A DNA stretch of 64,000 nucleotides from an uncultured Schlesneria sp. Lineage in GTDB: Bacteria > Planctomycetota > Planctomycetia > Planctomycetales > Planctomycetaceae. Under the pieces are notes generated by a model. That model ran no database searches, had not been told where the DNA came from, and worked only from the letters and a program-made list of their open reading frames with translations. A program made the translations under genes and the position numbers. Shown here piece by piece: positions 49,543-63,269 of this stretch (the stretch's first letter is position 1; each line of letters starts with the position of its first letter). The DNA lies in assembly GCA_903834925.1 (NCBI GenBank), contig CAILLA010000132.1, positions 1-64,000 on the forward strand, read 5' to 3'.

Positions 49543-50188
49543 ATGCGGCGACTTATTAGTCAATTGCTATTAACCTGTGCTGTCGTCGTCGCTACGACGT
49601 TGTTGGAGGGTACAACTAACGCAAGCCTTATCGCTGTGACGCCGTCGCAATTTTCAGGTACATCTGCGTCATTTACCGGCGACGCGTTGGGTGGAAGTCC
49701 ACCCCCCCTACGGATTCTCCAATAATGCTTCTGATGTCGGGTGGATCTGGTACAACGGCGACAATTTCACAGTCGATTTTCTGACTGCTGAGGCCGTCGA
49801 CACCTTCCGTGTCTGGAGCGTTTACGCGGGCGGCGAACGGGGTGCGACCTGGGAAATACTTTCCTCCGATAACGGCACGACGTTCACTCATGAAACGAAC
49901 TTTACTTACGACACAAGCGTTGGTGGCGGAGTCAACGACGATAATTCGACGAGAAGTGACTACGCGGGATGGTATTCCGTCAGCTTCAATGTTGTTGGGA
50001 ATGCACATCGCTACTGGCAGGTCCTTGATGCCGGTGCCCTGGTCAATCACTCCCCTCGATCGGCGGAAGTGCAATTCTTCAGCCAGACGGCGACCGTACC
50101 CGAACCCTCGTCGTTCGCCCTGTTGAGTCTTGGTGGAATCGGTTTGGCGATCGGTGCCTCCCGACGACGGACGCGAGCAAGCGCTTAG
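49543..50188 (+). pseudogene. PEP-CTERM protein gene with a frameshift
   Basis: The N-terminal frame starts at the ATG at 49543 (AAGGAAAA upstream) with a signal peptide (LLLTCAVVVATTLLEG). A run of seven Cs (49702-49708) breaks the frame; with six Cs it joins a second frame reading YGFSNNASDVGWIWYNG onward, for a product of 214 residues. The C-terminus is a classic PEP-CTERM signal: VPEPSS, a hydrophobic helix, then RRRTR. The middle is a beta-rich domain of no known function. It is either phase-variable, a sequencing error, or disrupted. PEP-CTERM proteins are processed by exosortases, none of which is in the window. Confidence 0.75.
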
Positions 50189-52046: not shown

Positions 52047-52631
52047 CTACCCAAAACTGGCTGACAGGCTTTGGCGCAGCTTTTCCCGGGCGCGTGACAG
52101 CGTGGGGCCGATCGAGTTTTCTGGGATTCCAGTGTTTTCGCTGATTTCGCGGTAGGATCGGCCTTCAAGATGAAACTGCCGGATTGCAGTGGCATCCGTC
52201 TCGGAAAGGCCTTCCAGCATTCGTTCAACCAGTTCCTGATTTTCGATGCGAGTGATTTCGCTGATATCGGCTCGCGCCATTTCCAGGTTAGCGTTATGCG
52301 ATTTGACGTGCCCGAACGCTTCGGCCATTCGTCGCGAGATGATTTCCCGTACAACAATCCGACGCGAAATCACCGCGAGATATGTAGCCAGAGCGCTTTC
52401 GCCTTTAAAACGTCTGAGAACCCCAAAATCGTCCGCCAGGATCGCCAGAAAGATCTCGGCACACAGATCGTCAACGTCGCTTGGCCCCAACTCGACACTT
52501 CGTGCCTCAGAAGTGTGGTTGATCACATGGATAAACAGACCGGCAAATCGATCAACGAACTCGCGCCACGCACTGCCATCACGGCTGAGGCAGCGTTCGA
52601 GAAGATTGCGGTCACGGTCTGTCAGTGCCAC
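52047..52631 (-). CDS. RNA polymerase sigma factor, sigma-70 family (ECF-like)
   Basis: A 194-residue sigma factor with a region 2 (SAWREFVDRFAGLFIHVI, DVDDLCAEIFLAIL, LATYLAVISRRIV) and a region 4 HTH (LSETDATAIRQFHLEG, YREISENTGIPENSIGPTLSRAREKL). The start chosen is the GTG at 52631 with AGGTG upstream; an ATG at 52748 would add 39 residues with a Cys pair (SSCDRC) and no family match. No anti-sigma gene adjoins, so control may be through an unlinked factor. Confidence 0.88.
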   Translation of the reverse strand: MALTDRDRNLLERCLSRDGSAWREFVDRFAGLFIHVINHTSEARSVELGPSDVDDLCAEIFLAILADDFGVLRRFKGESALATYLAVISRRIVVREIISRRMAEAFGHVKSHNANLEMARADISEITRIENQELVERMLEGLSETDATAIRQFHLEGRSYREISENTGIPENSIGPTLSRAREKLRQSLSASFG

Positions 52632-53249
52632 GTTGCACCTGTCGCAGGAACTGATTCCAAAGGATCCGATGACAATCTGTCTGTAATCTACACCGGCGTG
52701 AGAACACGCCGCAAGACAATTATCAAGGTATGGGGGACACCAGTTCAAGACCCAGATGGGAATTCAGCCAATCTTAAGGGATTTAAAGACTTGATCGATG
52801 ATAAACTCGAAATAAATGAAAAACCCAATCCTGGCTTCACCCACATCAATGGGAGGGCGAGGCTCCTGCCGATGATTGGTCCAATTGCTCAATAGACTTC
52901 TTCGGGTCCGAAACTTGACTCAATGAGTCAAGTTTCAGAATTTCCGCAAGAGTCGCCTTCTCGCTGCGCGAGTAGAAAGCCGAATTGCCATTTACCGAGT
53001 GATACATCAGCGCATTCAAGCGCCAGTCGAGGTTTGCTGCAATTCGGCTATCCTCTCGCTGAGCGAGAGGGCTACTTTGGTCTGAGGAAAAGCCTCGCGA
53101 GAGTCTCCGTTTCGAGGTGATTTGACGGAAAAAAAGAAAATCCACCAATGCCGATTCACGAAATTTGAAACTCATTGCGGACTTTTCTGCTTGGGATAGA
53201 ATAGGGAAAATGACCTCCCTTTCTGTTACGACCACAATTGAGAGTCCGA
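52632..53249. other. Intergenic region with palindromes
   Basis: About 620 bp. It holds the perfect palindrome CTTGACTCAATGAGTCAAG at 52914-52932 and the inverted repeat 52951-53076, listed separately. The apparent minus-strand frame across it is judged spurious. Confidence 0.5.
52951..53076. repeat. Inverted repeat with CTCTCGCTGAGCGAGAG core
   Basis: Arms 52951-52988 and 53039-53076 pair over 38 bp with about eight mismatches. Each arm itself contains a small palindrome of the TCTCGCTGnGCGAGA type. It resembles a two-sided REP element. Confidence 0.6.
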
Positions 53250-54470
53250 ATGGCCGATGAACTCAGTTTTGCGGATTATGAAAGTCGCCTTGATCGATCG
53301 ATCAAGGTCAAAGCCCCCGATTTCTCGTCGGGTGATCGCCTGAAACACCTGATATTCTCGGGACAATTTACTCGACCTCTGCTCGATAAGCTTTGCCGAC
53401 TGGCTGACAAGATCCGGCTGCTGGCCAAGTCGAAAGAGGGGCACCGGTATCTCAATACTCTGCTGTCGCACAAGCGTGCAATGCTTTATTTCACGCAGCC
53501 TTCGACGAGAACGTTCATGTCGTTCGCCGCTGCGTGCCAGATCCTGGGGATGACCTGTAACGAAGTCCGCGATCTGTCGGTTTCATCGGAAGCCAAGGGG
53601 GAATCGCCATTCGATTCAATTCGAATGTTCAGCAGTTATTTCGACCTGGTGATCATGCGCAGTCACATTCCGAAATTTGCGGAATGTTGTGGCTACATGA
53701 TGAATACGCTGGCGGACAGTCAACGCCGCAGTGTTCCGATTATGAATGCGGGCGCGGGGTCAGACGAACATCCGACGCAGGCACTACTCGACATTTACAC
53801 GATCCAGCGAGCCTTCAGTTTCACGCACGCGAAGGATTCACGCCAATGGACTCGCTATGACGAATTGCGAGAGCAATTTCCCGGACTACGCAAAGGAATT
53901 TCAGGGAAAACAATTGGGTTTTGTGGTGATATCCGGCGTGGTCGAACGGTTCGCTCGCTGGCTCAATTACTTGCTCTGCACGAACAAGTTCGATTGGTAT
54001 TTATTTCTCCGCCACACCCGACCCTGGCCCTGCCCCGCGACTTGAAAGACAAATTGATCGACGCGAGGGTTGATGTTCGCGAGTGTCATTCGCTCGAAGA
54101 TCCGCTTGACGGCAAGCCGGTCATTGAGCAACTCGACGCCCTGTACATGACCCGAATTCAGCGTGAGCACAATTCCGGTGCCGAAGAAGCCGAACTGAAT
54201 GAACTGGATTTCTCGCACTTCAAACTGAATAAACCACGTGTCGCGCGAATGAAACCGTACGCGGCCATCCTGCATCCATTTCCACGCGACAAAGAGTTCG
54301 GTGAAATCCCACCGGCAATCGACGATGACGAACGTGCATTTTACTTCCGACAGGCACGAAACGGCATGTGGGCACGAGCCGCACTGGTTGCACACATCTT
54401 CGACGTCGACGGTGAGATCAACGATTACTACGAACAATACAACAGCGAAATGCAGATTTCGCCGCAGTAG
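53250..54470 (+). CDS. pyrB: Aspartate carbamoyltransferase catalytic subunit
   Basis: A 406-residue ATCase from the ATG at 53250. The carbamoyl-phosphate loop is QPSTRTFMSF. SEAKGES holds the mobile-loop lysine, AGAGSDEHPTQALLDIY the carbamate-site motif, GDIRRGRTVRSL and YMTRIQREH the aspartate domain, and ILHPFPR the C-terminal motif. It makes carbamoyl-aspartate in pyrimidine synthesis. It is longer than the E. coli chain (about 310), with an N-terminal extension of roughly 60 residues and inserts. No pyrI or other pyr gene adjoins. Confidence 0.92.
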   Translation: MADELSFADYESRLDRSIKVKAPDFSSGDRLKHLIFSGQFTRPLLDKLCRLADKIRLLAKSKEGHRYLNTLLSHKRAMLYFTQPSTRTFMSFAAACQILGMTCNEVRDLSVSSEAKGESPFDSIRMFSSYFDLVIMRSHIPKFAECCGYMMNTLADSQRRSVPIMNAGAGSDEHPTQALLDIYTIQRAFSFTHAKDSRQWTRYDELREQFPGLRKGISGKTIGFCGDIRRGRTVRSLAQLLALHEQVRLVFISPPHPTLALPRDLKDKLIDARVDVRECHSLEDPLDGKPVIEQLDALYMTRIQREHNSGAEEAELNELDFSHFKLNKPRVARMKPYAAILHPFPRDKEFGEIPPAIDDDERAFYFRQARNGMWARAALVAHIFDVDGEINDYYEQYNSEMQISPQ

Positions 54471-55429: not shown

Positions 55430-56848
55430 TCATACGCCATCATCTGTTGAATCAACGGATTGTCGCGGCTCGTCAATCTCGCCCGAATCATTGTCGATAA
55501 TCCCAAGCACTTCCATCCTTCGGTAAAGCCTCGGCCGGGTAATTCCCAATAACTCCGCCGCCCTGGCCTTATTATGACGAGCTTCCGCCAGAGCTAATTC
55601 GATTTGCTCCCGTTCGACTCGCAGCAGTAACGGATCGAGGTTCTCTGAACGTTTTCGCACTTTTGGGCCGATCGTCTGCCCGCTGACCCCTGTGCGGAAC
55701 CGAAACGGAAGATGATTCGTTTCAATATCCGGCCCCGTGCAAACCTGTCGCGATTCTGCAACAACGGCTCTCAGTTCACCGACGTTACCCGGCCAGTTAT
55801 ACCGACGAAACTGTTGCCAGACATCATTGTGAAAGCCGGTGATCTGATGCGATTCGCCTCGATTGAATTCTTCCAGGAAAAACTGAGCCAAGGGTTCAAG
55901 ATCCTCGGGACGACTTCGGAGCGAGGGGACTGAAATAACGATTGTGGTCAGCGCGTAATGAAGTTCGTTCAGAAATTCATCCGATTCAACTAACCGGTCT
56001 AACGGATTCAGCGCAGCCGCCATGACTCGTGGGCTTGCCGCGCGTTTTAACTCGATCACATTCAGCACAAGTCGCTGCAGGTCTCTTGGCAATGTTTCGA
56101 CGTGATTGAGATAGATTGTTCCGGGTTGAAAGTCGCCAGCCTGACTCGATTCCAGAATTCTGTTGAACGTTGATTCCAGATGCTGTGAGGTCAACCTGCG
56201 GCAATCCAGCGGCACAAATGATGTTCGCCCTCGATCACTGGCGTCATGGATCAGGCGCCCCAGTTGTTCGCGCCCGGTCCCGACTTCGCCCAGGAAAAGT
56301 ACGGGAACAGATGATTGTTGTGCCAATCTCAGTTGCTCAAAAACTCGCCGCATTCCGGGACTGCGGCCGACAAGCAAACCTTCGCCAATCTGCTGCCGTA
56401 CGGATACTCGCAACGCTGCAAGTTCGATATGCAACCGCTGCGAAATCGAAACGCCAGCAGAAATTGCGATTGCAGACGGAGGTTGAATCACGCCGAGTGC
56501 CGCTTGAACCTTATGATCAACATCGGTCAAAGGAAAGAAGTGAATGTGACTGGCGACAGGATCACGCTCGCGATGAGCAATAATCGCAGGGACCGTCACG
56601 GTATTGCCTTGCCAGACACTGGAAGGTGGGGTCAATGAAGCCAGGAGGGCCGCTGTTGTTTTCGAGTCGGCCTCTGTCACAAACTCGCAGACCTGACCAA
56701 GCACATCGGGCGGGGTCCATCCGGTCAATTGCTGGCAACCCGCGTTGAAGAACACCAGGCGTCGATTGGCATTCAGCACAAACAACGCCACCGAGGTGTC
56801 TTTTAGCCAGACTTCCAGTCGACGGGTCGTCCGAACACGTTTGGCCAT
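55430..56848 (-). CDS. NtrC-like protein with degenerate ATPase motifs
   Basis: A 472-residue protein. A PAS domain lies at about 10-125, followed by an AAA+ region at 155-380 and a Fis-type HTH at about 420-455 (ARAAELLGITRPRLYRR). The Walker A reads GEVGTGRE (the Lys replaced by Arg193). The Walker B reads TIYLNHVE, with Asn248-His249 where DE is expected. The GAFTGA sigma-54 contact loop is missing: the segment from LESTFNRILESSQAGDF directly reaches the Walker B. YNWPGNVGEL remains. It probably binds DNA and senses through PAS but cannot act as a sigma-54 activator. Last gene of a STAS-kinase-NtrC operon. Confidence 0.82.
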   Translation of the reverse strand: MAKRVRTTRRLEVWLKDTSVALFVLNANRRLVFFNAGCQQLTGWTPPDVLGQVCEFVTEADSKTTAALLASLTPPSSVWQGNTVTVPAIIAHRERDPVASHIHFFPLTDVDHKVQAALGVIQPPSAIAISAGVSISQRLHIELAALRVSVRQQIGEGLLVGRSPGMRRVFEQLRLAQQSSVPVLFLGEVGTGREQLGRLIHDASDRGRTSFVPLDCRRLTSQHLESTFNRILESSQAGDFQPGTIYLNHVETLPRDLQRLVLNVIELKRAASPRVMAAALNPLDRLVESDEFLNELHYALTTIVISVPSLRSRPEDLEPLAQFFLEEFNRGESHQITGFHNDVWQQFRRYNWPGNVGELRAVVAESRQVCTGPDIETNHLPFRFRTGVSGQTIGPKVRKRSENLDPLLLRVEREQIELALAEARHNKARAAELLGITRPRLYRRMEVLGIIDNDSGEIDEPRQSVDSTDDGV

Positions 56849-56877
56849 CTTCTTTTCACGAAACGATGACGTTCGAT

Positions 56878-57294
56878 TCAGCGTTGATGCAATTTTTCAA
56901 GCAGAACCCGATTTCCCTTAGGACTGAATTCGATCCGAGTCATAAACTCACGCATCAACATCAGTCCGCGTCCAGTAGGAATTTCGAGATTCTCATCTTT
57001 GGTGCAATCGGGGACCTCTTCCGGGCGAAAACCAGCCCCCTGATCCTCGATCTCAATTCGAACTCCGTCAGGAGTTCGCTGAAAATCGATTCGAACAGTT
57101 TTTTCGGGACTCAGCTTATTTCCATGTTTGATGGCGTTTGTCACCGCTTCGTCGACGGAAAGGCGGATCCCGAATTCATCTCGCGATGAAAATCCGGCTT
57201 GCGCGACCTCGGCCATGATCCGCTCAACGACCGCTTGCCCGGATTCGTAATCGCTTTGAATCACAACCTCGAACTGATCGCTGGGTGGCTTCAC
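56878..57294 (-). CDS. RsbW-like anti-sigma kinase (HATPase_c_2)
   Basis: A 138-residue GHKL-fold serine kinase or anti-sigma protein. The N box is DEAVTNAIKHGN (residues 48-59), the G1 box DQGAGF (84-89) and the G2 box GRGLMLM (108-114). It would phosphorylate the STAS protein and bind a sigma factor or other partner. It lies 3 bp after the STAS gene and 29 bp before the NtrC-like gene. The ECF-type factor at 52047 is near but not adjacent, and pairing is unproven. Confidence 0.9.
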   Translation of the reverse strand: MKPPSDQFEVVIQSDYESGQAVVERIMAEVAQAGFSSRDEFGIRLSVDEAVTNAIKHGNKLSPEKTVRIDFQRTPDGVRIEIEDQGAGFRPEEVPDCTKDENLEIPTGRGLMLMREFMTRIEFSPKGNRVLLEKLHQR

Positions 57295-57297
57295 GTC

Positions 57298-57651
57298 TTA
57301 AAACCCTTGGAGAGCTTCTTCTTGTGTCGCTTTAATATCAAAGATCTTGTTCAGCCGAGTGATCTCAAATACTTCGTAAATATCTGGCCTGATACAACAA
57401 AGTCGCAATTTCGATTTGGCGGCTTTCGCCTTCTTATCCAACGTAATCAATTTGCCGAGGGCGGCACTAGACAAGTATTCGACGAGGCTGAAATCGAGAA
57501 CAATCTTACGACGTCCGTCCTCGTCGATCAGCGCGAAGAGGTTACTGCCAATTACCTGAATGTTCGCTTCATCCAGAATTTTCTTGTCGACAAATTTGGC
57601 AACTGTCACATCACCAACTTCTTCAAGATCCAATCGTTGACTGGGTGCCAT
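57298..57651 (-). CDS. STAS-domain anti-sigma factor antagonist
   Basis: A 117-residue single STAS domain of the SpoIIAA/RsbV type. The switch region reads LVEYLSSAALGKL, with Ser61/Ser62 at the phospho-acceptor position usually in a DSSG context. The strand IVLDFS precedes it. It is first in a same-strand trio with the RsbW-like kinase (3 bp gap) and the NtrC-like gene. The partner-switch logic is inferred. Confidence 0.9.
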   Translation of the reverse strand: MAPSQRLDLEEVGDVTVAKFVDKKILDEANIQVIGSNLFALIDEDGRRKIVLDFSLVEYLSSAALGKLITLDKKAKAAKSKLRLCCIRPDIYEVFEITRLNKIFDIKATQEEALQGF

Positions 57652-58006: not shown

Positions 58007-59422
58007 ATGCTGACACGGCTGCTACAACAAAACGAAATTCTTAAACTGGCATGGATCATAGGGGTTTTTGATCCGACCGAACCCGCTCGCGCACCGATGA
58101 TGGCATACAATACACGGATCGTTCTGCTGGGGACGCTGCTGCTCGGAATGTGCAGTGGGATCGTCGGAGCGTTTATGCTCTTGCGAAAAAAACCCCTGGT
58201 GGGAGACGTTGCCAGCCATGCAGCACTTCCGGGAATTGGTATCGCATATCTGGCCGTCGAAGCGGTATCACCTGGAGCTGGAAAATCGCTTCCCTGGTTG
58301 CTTGCGGGTGCATCCGCGTCAGCCGCGTGCGGCGTCATCGTTACGAATTTGATTCAGCGGACCCGACTGATTAAAGAGGATGCAGCACTCGGGATCGTTC
58401 TTAGCCTGTTTTTCGGAGCGGGAATCGTATTGTTGACGATCATTCAAGGCATGAAAACGGGAAGCGCGGCCGGTCTAGGCGACTTTATTTTCGGTAAAGC
58501 GGCGGCAATGACTGCGATGGATGTGACGTTGATTGCAACGGCCAGTGCGATTGTTCTGCTTGTCTGTTTTGTTCTGTTCAAGGAATTTGCAGTCCTTTGC
58601 TTTGACGAAGAATACGCCGCTGCGCTCGGTTGGCCCGTGAAACAACTCGACCTGTTACTGACGGGACTCGTCGTGGGTGTGACAGTGATCGGCATGCAAA
58701 GCGTTGGCTTGTTGCTGGTCGTGGCATTGCTGATTATTCCACCGACGGCAGCGAGATTCTGGAGCAATCGACTTAAACCGATGGTATTGATTGCCGGGGT
58801 CATCGGTGGCGCAAGCTCGTCGATAGGTGTCCTGCTCAGCGCGACGATCACACAACTTGCAGCCGGGCCGATTATTGTCCTGATTGGATCGATTGCCTTC
58901 GGTTTCAGCCTGTTATTCGGAACCGTTCGAGGAACGTTCTGGCAACTGTGGCGACAGCGCACCGCAAGCCGCCGAAAAGGACAACTCGATCTGCTGCGGG
59001 CCTGTTATGAAGAGTTAGAACAGACATTATCGCCGGACAAATTTGACGGCAATCAGACTGTTCATCAAATGCCCGACCTGACTGCATACCCGATTAAACA
59101 AGAGTCGATTGTCGCCGCCCGAGGCTGGTCACCGGGACGAGTTGCTGAACTTTTGCGTTCTGCGATCCTCGAAGGCTGGCTGAGACAAGACTCGAGCGGA
59201 CAATTGCGTTTGACCGATGCCGGAACGCGACTGGCTGCTCGTGCCGTGCGAAACCATCGTTTGTGGGAGCTGTACCTGATTCACTTTGCCGACGTTGCCC
59301 CAAGTCGGGTTGATCGAGAGGCGGACATGATCGAACATGTGCTCGAACCGGGCCTGATCGACCAATTGGAAAAGCTATTGAAACAAGATCGGCCCAATTC
59401 CGTACCAGCCAGCCCGCATTAA
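58007..59422 (+). CDS. Metal ABC transporter permease fused to a DtxR-like domain
   Basis: A 471-residue protein. Residues about 30-315 form an ABC-3 family permease with some eight membrane segments (GMCSGIVGAFMLLRKKPLVGDVASHAALPG start, GMQSVGLLLVVALLIIPPTAAR). A cytoplasmic tail from about 320 adds a winged-helix-like part (residues 365-412) and NHRLWELYLIH...DREADMIEHVLEP at 416-447, which matches the DtxR/MntR dimerisation and metal-binding helices. It probably carries Mn, Zn or Fe. No ATPase or binding-protein gene adjoins, so its partners are elsewhere or absent. Confidence 0.88.
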   Translation: MLTRLLQQNEILKLAWIIGVFDPTEPARAPMMAYNTRIVLLGTLLLGMCSGIVGAFMLLRKKPLVGDVASHAALPGIGIAYLAVEAVSPGAGKSLPWLLAGASASAACGVIVTNLIQRTRLIKEDAALGIVLSLFFGAGIVLLTIIQGMKTGSAAGLGDFIFGKAAAMTAMDVTLIATASAIVLLVCFVLFKEFAVLCFDEEYAAALGWPVKQLDLLLTGLVVGVTVIGMQSVGLLLVVALLIIPPTAARFWSNRLKPMVLIAGVIGGASSSIGVLLSATITQLAAGPIIVLIGSIAFGFSLLFGTVRGTFWQLWRQRTASRRKGQLDLLRACYEELEQTLSPDKFDGNQTVHQMPDLTAYPIKQESIVAARGWSPGRVAELLRSAILEGWLRQDSSGQLRLTDAGTRLAARAVRNHRLWELYLIHFADVAPSRVDREADMIEHVLEPGLIDQLEKLLKQDRPNSVPASPH

Positions 59423-60722: not shown

Positions 60723-63269
60723 CTAAGGTGTCACTGTGACATTACGGGTAACTGGATTACTCGACTTCGGAGTCGGAACAAAATCGTCGGTCGCGATGAC
60801 GGTAAATGTTCGAGTCGCCGTACTGACCGCTGATCCTGACGTGCTAAACGTCACCAATCGCAGAACCTCACGATAAAACCCTACGTAACTTGTCCCCGTG
60901 AATGTCAGCGTCCCTGTGGCTGCATTGAATGAACCGACGATCCCGTATTGATTCGTGAAAGAGAGCAAATCGTGTCCGCTCGAATTATTTTGGTAACCAG
61001 ATGTGATCTGGATGGTCAGACTCGTAAGGTTATTACTGTCAGGGTCACTAACCAGTGCATTGCCAAAAATTGCGATCGCAGGACTGTTCACTTTGTATGT
61101 CAAGGCTGTGGAGTCATTTACCTGCACAAGAGGAGGGGCGTCGATTCCACTGACCGAGACATTTTGAGTTCCGGACCCGCTGTTTGCATAAATGTCGTTT
61201 ACAGTGAACGTTGCCGCTCGAGTGGCTGGATTCACGACCCCGGCAACGGCGTAAAATACGATTGATCGAAGGACCGTCTGAAAGTGAGCCACCGTATCAA
61301 ACCCTGTCAGAGTCAACACGGCAGTGTGCCCGACAAGATCTTCGACAAACGTATGCTGAAACGCATAGCTGTTATAAAAATCAAGACGATCTCCCGCCTG
61401 CCAGTTTGCGAACGAGACCGTTGCGCTATAGATGTTCAAACCGGTCGGTTGCGTAACAACCAGGTTTGGAGCGACGGTCAGTGGAGCGGCATTTTGAAAG
61501 TATGTCACCGTACTGCCGACCCCGGTGACCGTCGGCGGAACACTGTTCGCGATGGGATTTATGCGAATGCTTTGAGAACCCGAGGCGCTGTGTGAAAGTA
61601 TGTCTGTCACGCTAAACATGGCGACTTGTTGCAACCAAGTTACGGGATTACCTGCCACGCACCAGAAGACAACGGAACTGAGCTCCGTCTGGTAGTGTGC
61701 AGCGGTGTTGACTCCTGTCAAAGTTAAGACCGCCATACCCGCGACAAGGTCTTCGCTAAACGTATGCTGCAATGCGTACGTGTTCGAAAACTCAAGACGG
61801 TCACCACTCTGCCAGTTCACAAACGAGACCGTCGCACTGGCGATATTCAGTCCGTCGGGATGAGTAACAACGATACTCGGAGCGATCGTGATTGCAGCCC
61901 CCTTTTCCACGTAGGTCAGTGGTAAAGTGAATCCCGAGATAGCCGGCGTCGCACCTGCCCGATCGGTCAGGTTGCGAGTCACGATATTGGAAAGCTGTTG
62001 ACCATTGTTCGCTTGAAAGCAGATCGTCCGGGTTAATGCCATGTTCGGTGAGGCACTGGTATTGTGGTACATGACATTGCGCAATGCAACGCGATAATTC
62101 GAAACCGAATCGGTTCCGGTCAGTGTCAATGTTCCCGTTGTCGAATTCCACGACCCGGTGATGGTGGCGGTGTTCGAAAAGGTGAGCACATCCTGGTTGC
62201 TCTGGTAATTACCCGTAATCGAAATCGTGGCTGAAGTCCAGTTATTCAAATTCTTGTCAAAGACGGCAAGTGTTGAGGTCACGGGTGTCGATAACGCACC
62301 GATGGCACTCAGCGGAGTCGATTCGATCCCGTAGAGAACGGGCGGGACGTTTGTTCGCGTGTTCGCGTCGACTTCAACGTTTTGTGATCCGATCGTGAAA
62401 TTCTTGGAAATCGGTGAGCTGATTCCTGTCCCCGAAAACGTGACGGTGTAAGTTCCAGCAGGAAGTGCAATCTGGTAACCGCCGGCAGAATTGGCTGTTG
62501 TGTGGTAAGTTCCTGCACCGGTAATGTCGACGGAAACTCCACCAATCCCTTCTCCAACGTCATAGAAGTTGTTGGCGCTGACAGAATCGGTATAGGCAAT
62601 TCCGGTCAAGATCGAATTGCCGGGCCTCGTTCCAAAATCGTTGCCAGTTTGAACCGCATTAAAGCCAGTGTATTTTCCCGATTGAACAGCCGAGCCCACT
62701 TCCGAGAAACTGCCGTTAACCATATTCACGCGATGGCCACGATCGACTTCGGTCGTATCGAGAAATAGATTCTGATACTCGTCAGTGACGAACTGAAGCA
62801 GATTGATGGCACCCGATGTGTATTGAAGCGCCAGATTCTCGCCAACGGTCGTCCACCCGGTGTAACCAGAGGCATTAATTCGCTGAACCGGCGTGGAACC
62901 GTCCGAGCCTGTGTGGGAAAAATAGTTATTGGCCAGTTCGTCAGCGATATGACCTTCGATTGATGCTTGCAGATTGTCATTGAGAGCCAACGGCTGACGA
63001 GCACCCGGAGCCAATGTTCCAGCGGGCAGGCCTTCGTTCAGCGTCGTCCCTAACCGAGTCGCTTCGGCAACCGGATCTTGTCGAGCGCGATTGATTAACG
63101 CCAGAAAATATTCTTCGTAGGCCGTAACGTTCGTTAGAGCGATCCGTTTTTCCAATCGTTCAATGGAAACCGCTCCTGGTCGGTTTGAGAAATACGATCG
63201 GACTCGTCGTCCCCGCTTACAAATTTTCGAATCAAAACACCAGCGTTTCAATTGCGTCCAAAAGTCCAT
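60723..63269 (-). CDS. Secreted CAP-domain protein with internal beta repeats
   Basis: An 848-residue extracellular protein. The N-terminus has the motif ERLEKRIAL (residues 37-45), like planctomycete LEPR-XLL signals. A CAP (SCP/PR1) domain spans about 52-225: LINRARQDPV, FSHTGSDGSTP, GENLALQY, GHRVNMVNGSFSEVGSA. A carboxypeptidase-regulatory or SdrD-like domain follows at about 230-305. The rest consists of four beta-rich repeats, of which two are very similar (SATVSFVNWQSGDRLEFSN and SATVSFANWQAGDRLDFYN). CAP domains occur in secreted nucleases, proteases and adhesins. Function is unknown. Confidence 0.82.
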   Translation of the reverse strand: MDFWTQLKRWCFDSKICKRGRRVRSYFSNRPGAVSIERLEKRIALTNVTAYEEYFLALINRARQDPVAEATRLGTTLNEGLPAGTLAPGARQPLALNDNLQASIEGHIADELANNYFSHTGSDGSTPVQRINASGYTGWTTVGENLALQYTSGAINLLQFVTDEYQNLFLDTTEVDRGHRVNMVNGSFSEVGSAVQSGKYTGFNAVQTGNDFGTRPGNSILTGIAYTDSVSANNFYDVGEGIGGVSVDITGAGTYHTTANSAGGYQIALPAGTYTVTFSGTGISSPISKNFTIGSQNVEVDANTRTNVPPVLYGIESTPLSAIGALSTPVTSTLAVFDKNLNNWTSATISITGNYQSNQDVLTFSNTATITGSWNSTTGTLTLTGTDSVSNYRVALRNVMYHNTSASPNMALTRTICFQANNGQQLSNIVTRNLTDRAGATPAISGFTLPLTYVEKGAAITIAPSIVVTHPDGLNIASATVSFVNWQSGDRLEFSNTYALQHTFSEDLVAGMAVLTLTGVNTAAHYQTELSSVVFWCVAGNPVTWLQQVAMFSVTDILSHSASGSQSIRINPIANSVPPTVTGVGSTVTYFQNAAPLTVAPNLVVTQPTGLNIYSATVSFANWQAGDRLDFYNSYAFQHTFVEDLVGHTAVLTLTGFDTVAHFQTVLRSIVFYAVAGVVNPATRAATFTVNDIYANSGSGTQNVSVSGIDAPPLVQVNDSTALTYKVNSPAIAIFGNALVSDPDSNNLTSLTIQITSGYQNNSSGHDLLSFTNQYGIVGSFNAATGTLTFTGTSYVGFYREVLRLVTFSTSGSAVSTATRTFTVIATDDFVPTPKSSNPVTRNVTVTP

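Follow-up and report, generated by a model that had tools for sequence, protein, structure and literature searches.

We describe a linked set of three regulatory genes, encoding a STAS protein, an RsbW/SpoIIAB-like kinase and a PAS-AAA-HTH protein with an NtrC-type AAA+ domain, in one clade of the planctomycete genus Schlesneria. The most probable reading is that two independent, separately conserved regulators, the STAS-kinase switch and the PAS-AAA-HTH protein, are now co-expressed from one apparent transcription unit, formed once in a Schlesneria subclade. The STAS protein, nearly universal and accompanied by its kinase, and the widely distributed NtrC-family protein are both part of Planctomycetia regulation. 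Among the matches listed from the open-licence PMC literature, we found no paper on these planctomycete genes and no described output for the STAS-kinase pair or for the regulator in Planctomycetia.

A three-gene locus in Schlesneria and its neighbors

The window (the whole 64-kb stretch of DNA that was analyzed) contains the trio and the following adjoining genes.

57298-57651, minus strand: STAS gene, ATG start, 117 aa
56878-57294, minus strand: RsbW/SpoIIAB-like kinase gene, GTG start, 138 aa
55430-56848, minus strand: PAS-AAA-Fis regulator gene, ATG start, 472 aa
54636-55361, minus strand: pdxJ, the first same-strand gene 3' of the regulator
58007-59422, plus strand, divergent: ABC-3 metal permease gene, upstream of the STAS gene
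52047-52748: ECF-like sigma gene, separated from the trio by two genes

The preliminary description had the STAS, kinase and PAS-AAA-HTH genes ordered on one strand, spaced 3 and 29 bp apart, and the open reading frame coordinates agree (57295-57297 between STAS and kinase; 56849-56877 between kinase and regulator). Gene content is nearly constant across 15 genomes of the genus: the regulator and STAS genes occur in 15/15 and a close kinase ortholog in 14/15. The three genes are contiguous and co-oriented in nine of these genomes (the window's own, G034, G118, G109, G269, G278, G299, G096, and G270), where about 15 to 115 bp separate kinase and regulator, measured between matched ends; in the other six (G268, G280, G275, G267, G288, and G075), the regulator and STAS genes are on separate contigs. 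The trio thus extends beyond one strain and is not a single-strain accident. A search for the same trio in other planctomycetes had also been suggested. Genome samples of the family, class, and phylum dismiss a general planctomycete trio and confine the linkage to one Schlesneria clade.

In a tree of 29 regulator sequences, built by a quick search with SH-aLRT support and without bootstrap, the nine trio genomes form one clade (SH-aLRT 100) and the six unlinked genomes form its sister clade (99), so that a single gain of linkage suffices. The closest named orthologs are from uncultured Schlesneria (85% and 83% identical). Linkage has been lost in 0/9 members of the clade, whose regulators are as low as 61% identical to that of the window, and its persistence at this level of identity counts against reading the regulators as independent. 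Genome G280, which we counted as unlinked despite this locus, has at a contig start (L157) a partial second regulator that is 62% identical to the window's and has its upstream side cut off; pdxJ and a carbamoyltransferase gene follow it, as in the trio clade, and it may be a second copy or contamination.

In the established operons spoIIAA-spoIIAB-sigF and rsbV-rsbW-sigB, the genes for STAS protein, kinase, and sigma factor follow one another. The trio is like the SpoIIAA/SpoIIAB-SigF and RsbV/RsbW-SigB systems in its STAS-then-kinase order and short spacing; it differs from these switches in that its third gene does not encode a sigma factor. The placement of a putative target after STAS and kinase, the genes being 3 and 29 bp apart, and the retention of linkage in 9/9 clade members both speak for a new partnership in the trio clade, in which the PAS-AAA-HTH protein would replace a sigma factor as binding partner of the kinase and would be freed by unphosphorylated STAS protein. 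We regard such a partnership as unlikely, in part because the flanking pdxJ is almost as well kept as the trio. Counted by homology in the nine trio genomes, pdxJ lies 3' of the regulator in 8/9 (not in G269), and the divergent permease gene lies upstream of STAS, at up to full length, in 7/9 (not in G270 or G096). The trio is therefore kept only slightly better than its neighbors, and strong selection for it is not needed.

Two of the flanking reading frames have unusual features. The permease frame (58007-59422) encodes 471 aa and has, fused to its C terminus, an iron-dependent-repressor (DtxR-type) metal-binding and dimerization domain. The aspartate carbamoyltransferase relative at 53238-54470 on the plus strand is 410 aa long, set against a model of 304 positions, and scores 204.6 bits, which is below the model cut-off of 236.95.

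The STAS-kinase pair, its putative promoter, and candidate targets

Judged by its domain matches, the window STAS protein is an RsbV/SpoIIAA-like single-domain protein: its one domain (Pfam STAS, 6.2e-15) spans residues 26-113 of 117 aa, and the protein exceeds the TIGR00377 cut-off. Ser62 pairs with the SpoIIAA phosphoserine (presumably Ser58 in that protein's numbering) in PDB alignments with SpoIIAA (1th8_B) and TM1442 (1sbo_A). The preceding residue, Ser61, occupies the position of an Asp in SpoIIAA, and it is this Ser before the phospho-serine that distinguishes the trio protein from SpoIIAA; Ser is kept there at the 95% level among 36 STAS proteins. Across the same 36 family proteins (35 loci plus the window, drawn from 113 family genomes with STAS), VEYLSSAALGKL is retained at the 95% level, Ser62 included.

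The kinase matches Pfam HATPase_c_2 (4e-26) and can be aligned to SpoIIAB (1th8_A). Its N, G1, and G2 boxes read EAxxNAIKHGN, DxGxGF, and GRG, with each residue kept in at least 80% of 35 family kinases. STAS and kinase domains, the phospho-serine position, and the kinase boxes are all points of likeness to the SpoIIAA/SpoIIAB-SigF and RsbV/RsbW-SigB systems. The kinase scores below the SpoIIAB/RsbW equivalog cut-offs (45.4 versus 135 bits for TIGR01925 and 31.6 versus 155.05 bits for TIGR01924), and the pair likewise misses the curated cut-off of TIGR02886. At 34 of the 35 loci examined, the STAS and kinase genes are adjacent and co-oriented. The one departure is G075 (L193), a smaller genus genome (4.7 Mb) in which STAS is present and a recognizable kinase beside it was not found. 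By analogy with the SpoIIAA/SpoIIAB and RsbV/RsbW families, the kinase would phosphorylate the STAS protein on Ser62, and an unlinked phosphatase would reset phospho-STAS. The boxes are kept in linked and unlinked kinases among the 35, and this conservation irrespective of linkage is a further point against a kinase with a new, clade-specific partner.

The pair also appears to have its own promoter.

57762-57734, minus strand: sigma-70-like promoter TTGACT-N17-CATGAT, whose first base lies 111 nt ahead of the STAS start

Promoter-like sites per se are not enriched over shuffles in number (3 versus 2.2), and the support comes from conservation. TTGACT-N17-NATGAT aligns upstream of STAS in 9/9 trio genomes, and TTGACA with the same spacing is found in 6/6 unlinked genus genomes. 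Outside the genus, TTGAC(A/T)-N16-18-NATGAT occurs in 9 of 21 other family upstream regions, compared with 0.0004 per composition-shuffled upstream region; the shuffles preserve base composition only and the pattern was chosen after viewing the trio alignment, the 21 upstream regions outside the genus being the least biased test. Since linked and unlinked genomes have this pattern in common, we infer that it belongs to the STAS-kinase unit and predates the regulator, which, on these alignments, seems to have joined a pre-existing unit.

No SigB/F/G-type sigma factor was found next to the trio among the open reading frames and Pfam matches of the window. TIGR02980, the model for the SigB/F/G family, exceeded its curated cut-off in 0/30 relatives, the window's own genome included, although this cut-off is strict: of 14 control genomes, just one exceeded it. 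The classical kinase target is therefore not recognizable here. Weaker sigma-70-family matches were found in 30/30 relatives, and these proteins are possible kinase targets. The earlier idea of a partner switch operating without a sigma factor stands insofar as the 30 relatives have no SigB/F/G sigma over the cut-off; it does not extend to a general module. That same 0/30 count favors a new partnership of kinase and PAS-AAA-HTH protein, as does the discussion of RsbW-like proteins with non-sigma targets in parts of one source (PMC12826045).

Anti-sigma activity is the established role of the kinase family, and the kinase might accordingly act on the ECF-like sigma factor encoded at 52047-52748, or on another sigma-70-family protein, with the regulator merely sharing the operon. 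We hold this to be improbable. The ECF gene is syntenic in 5/9 trio genomes, at 74-87% identity to the window's, but we saw no copy in the stretches retrieved from the remaining four or beside unlinked STAS-kinase pairs (stretches of 3.7 to 19 kb in both cases), and two genes intervene between it and the trio.

Further STAS switches have been reported, among them SypA-SypE, PA3347/HsbA-HsbR, RbaV, and HmpV (PMC8256260, PMC12826045, PMC6482189). According to the portions of these sources considered, the output of these STAS-kinase modules is likewise something other than SigB or SigF, or has yet to be identified, and a bEBP-like third operon member is not described in those portions.

Domains, motifs, and neighbors of the PAS-AAA-HTH regulator

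The regulator combines three regions.

56480-56812, minus strand: PAS domain, residues 13-123 (Pfam PAS, 3e-5)
55682-56374, minus strand: AAA+ core and lid, residues 159-389
55511-55618, minus strand: Fis-type HTH, residues 411-446 (Pfam HTH_8, 6.4e-11)

The AAA+ region matches Pfam Sigma54_activ_2 (2.2e-17) and AAA_lid_14 (9.7e-17), and its best PDB matches are an NtrC-family regulator (4l4u) and then VpsR. The motifs tell a different story from the domain matches. In the window regulator, Walker A reads GEVGTGRE, with Arg for Lys, the Walker B region reads IYLNHV, with NH for DE, and the stretch that carries GAFTGA in sigma-54 activators is absent. GAFTGA is present in 0/129 orthologs versus 6/12 paralogs (12/12 with a relaxed motif), and the Walker B DE is present in 4/129 orthologs versus 12/12 paralogs, 7 of these 12 paralogs being from the window's own genome. 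The Walker A residue is Lys in 86 and Arg in 40 of the 129 orthologs. The Fis-type HTH is among the best-kept parts of the regulator within the class.

These counts come from an alignment of 153 rows less 12, comprising 129 orthologs and 12 paralogs. Left out were L038, L040, and L042, as copies of genomes already in the alignment; L047, L048, and L049, as repeats of L138, L142, and L087; L055, present as two halves with the frame broken by a stop; and L043 and L044, with two rows each, which are Bradyrhizobium loci rejected as orthologs at 25% identity over the AAA-HTH part. An open reading frame near STAS in G053 (L225), taken at one point for the regulator, is a paralog bearing GAFTSA.

A canonical sigma-54 activator is ruled out by these motif counts, and by its motifs the regulator is not a classical one. 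The preliminary label of the third protein as NtrC-like is therefore apt for the fold and fails for sigma-54 function, since neither the GAFTGA loop nor the acidic Walker B pair is present. Domain matches alone would mislabel the PAS-AAA-HTH protein as sigma-54 dependent. A published sigma-54 regulon survey, in the part considered, retained GAFTGA-bearing proteins only (PMC12316311). We also rejected a defense-system reading: PADLOC matches to RtcR-type AAA-HTH models (best 8e-44) reflect the common AAA-HTH region, and PADLOC gave no match for the kinase or STAS. The predicted structure of the PAS-AAA-HTH protein (mean pLDDT 46.6, from a 5-row alignment) was too poor for a fold search.

According to the part of the source considered, the NtrC proteins of Caulobacter and Rhodobacter capsulatus lack GAFTGA and work at sigma-70 promoters (PMC10274813). 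These proteins and Vibrio cholerae VpsR have in common with the regulator an NtrC-type AAA+ domain without the loop and a retained HTH (same source and part), and in its PDB alignment with the regulator, VpsR has ND instead of DE at the Walker B position. The regulator differs from these GAFTGA-less bEBPs in its N terminus, which is a PAS domain where theirs is a receiver-type domain. We propose a regulator uncoupled from sigma-54, in which the signal would enter via PAS and the output would be DNA binding by the Fis-type HTH, presumably at sigma-70-type promoters and as either repressor or activator, like Rhodobacter and Caulobacter NtrC and VpsR.

A further difference from the GAFTGA-less bEBPs is that other families of the class encode a separate receiver-like protein beside the regulator.

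L123:4304-4804: example of the receiver-like protein, with 33 further loci

Of the 67 ortholog loci that come from these other families, 34 encode this protein of ~150 aa directly 3' of the regulator. By family, the count is 34/38 in seven (f2, f78, f81, f82, f83, f88, and f91; one f2 genome counted twice), 0/27 in f77, 0/1 in f79, and 0/1 in f87; the profile was iterated on the same candidates, and a handful of very long open frames are among those counted. None was found at the 63 loci of the window's own family. Weak PDB profile matches are to HupR1, FleR, and a response regulator (E 0.0053-0.0075), and the Pfam VpsR domain is found in 3/12 receiver-like proteins, in one of them barely over the cut-off. 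The receiver-like protein and the PAS-AAA-HTH protein are possibly a split VpsR/HupR-like regulator.

Distribution of the two units in family, class, and phylum

In a family sample of 120 genomes (thresholds of E ≤1e-45 for the regulator and E ≤1e-18 for STAS and kinase), we detected the regulator in 106, STAS in 113, the kinase in 105, and all three in 90. The 14 family genomes without the regulator, 13 of which are at least 94% complete, all keep STAS and kinase, so that the switch is independent of the regulator there. Conversely, the kinase was undetected in 15 of the 106 genomes with the regulator, several of these being incomplete. In 14 family genomes, both units are on one contig yet unlinked, 0.37-5.0 Mb apart in linear distance; one-contig genomes also include five trio genomes and, outside the genus, G079 and G005. 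All other family genomes with both units have them on different contigs. At class level, 193/196 genomes have a close STAS homolog (E ≤1e-14) and 118/198 have the regulator (1e-40). In the phylum sample, 9/149 had a regulator match at 1e-40; three matches from outside the class (L050-L052) carry a GAFTGA or GAFTDA loop and were not counted as orthologs.

The persistence of the switch in 14/14 family genomes lacking the regulator, and its unlinked state in nearly all others, tells against a partnership newly made in the trio clade. A mechanism joining kinase and regulator is weakened because both units exist independently, and we think it doubtful that operon capture re-targeted the partner switch so that a DNA-binding PAS protein, in place of a sigma factor, came under the direct control of STAS serine phosphorylation.

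A few loci bring the units together elsewhere. In G079, of another genus, regulator and switch lie tail to tail at a distance of about 330 bp, and in G005 they are 12.6 kb apart; this proximity counts against a single capture of independent regulators. STAS or kinase matches lie near a regulator-type open reading frame at 9 of 148 loci, namely, seven loci from five trio-clade genomes and one each in G079 and G332. The last, from another family, has a different STAS gene (L075:2511-2906), 32% identical to the window's, on the same strand just 3' of the regulator, with no kinase match in the G332 stretch. Its position beside the regulator also counts against independence. These cases (G079, perhaps G005, and the different STAS of G332) fit an old partnership in trans, in which switch and regulator would interact family-wide and the operon would only reveal this, in the manner of a Rosetta stone. 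Such a partnership appears very unlikely given the retention of both switch genes in 14/14 family genomes without the regulator, the undetected kinase in 15/106 regulator genomes (several incomplete), and the receiver-like neighbor that the regulator has instead in other families.

We therefore return to independent regulators brought into one apparent transcription unit. The PAS-AAA-HTH protein would then not be the ancestral output of the switch. Lying 3' of the kinase, its gene would be transcribed from the older STAS promoter, and regulator dose would for that reason track switch dose in the trio clade. The trio clade and its sister clade, which has the same genes unlinked, form a natural pair in which to study whether operon capture gives rise to a new signaling partnership.

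Gene neighborhoods of the regulator also yielded a recurrent family gene. With mechanical gene calls, members of one sequence cluster were found near the regulator at 20 loci of 17 family genomes, including four genus genomes in which the trio is unlinked; L067, the only cluster member tested, is a kinase of the PfkB family. Elsewhere in the window, 60723-63269 (minus strand) encodes an 848-aa protein with a CAP/SCP domain near its N terminus and a long, repetitive-looking C-terminal part, and 49691-50188 (plus strand) encodes a short protein with a PEP-CTERM sorting motif at its end.
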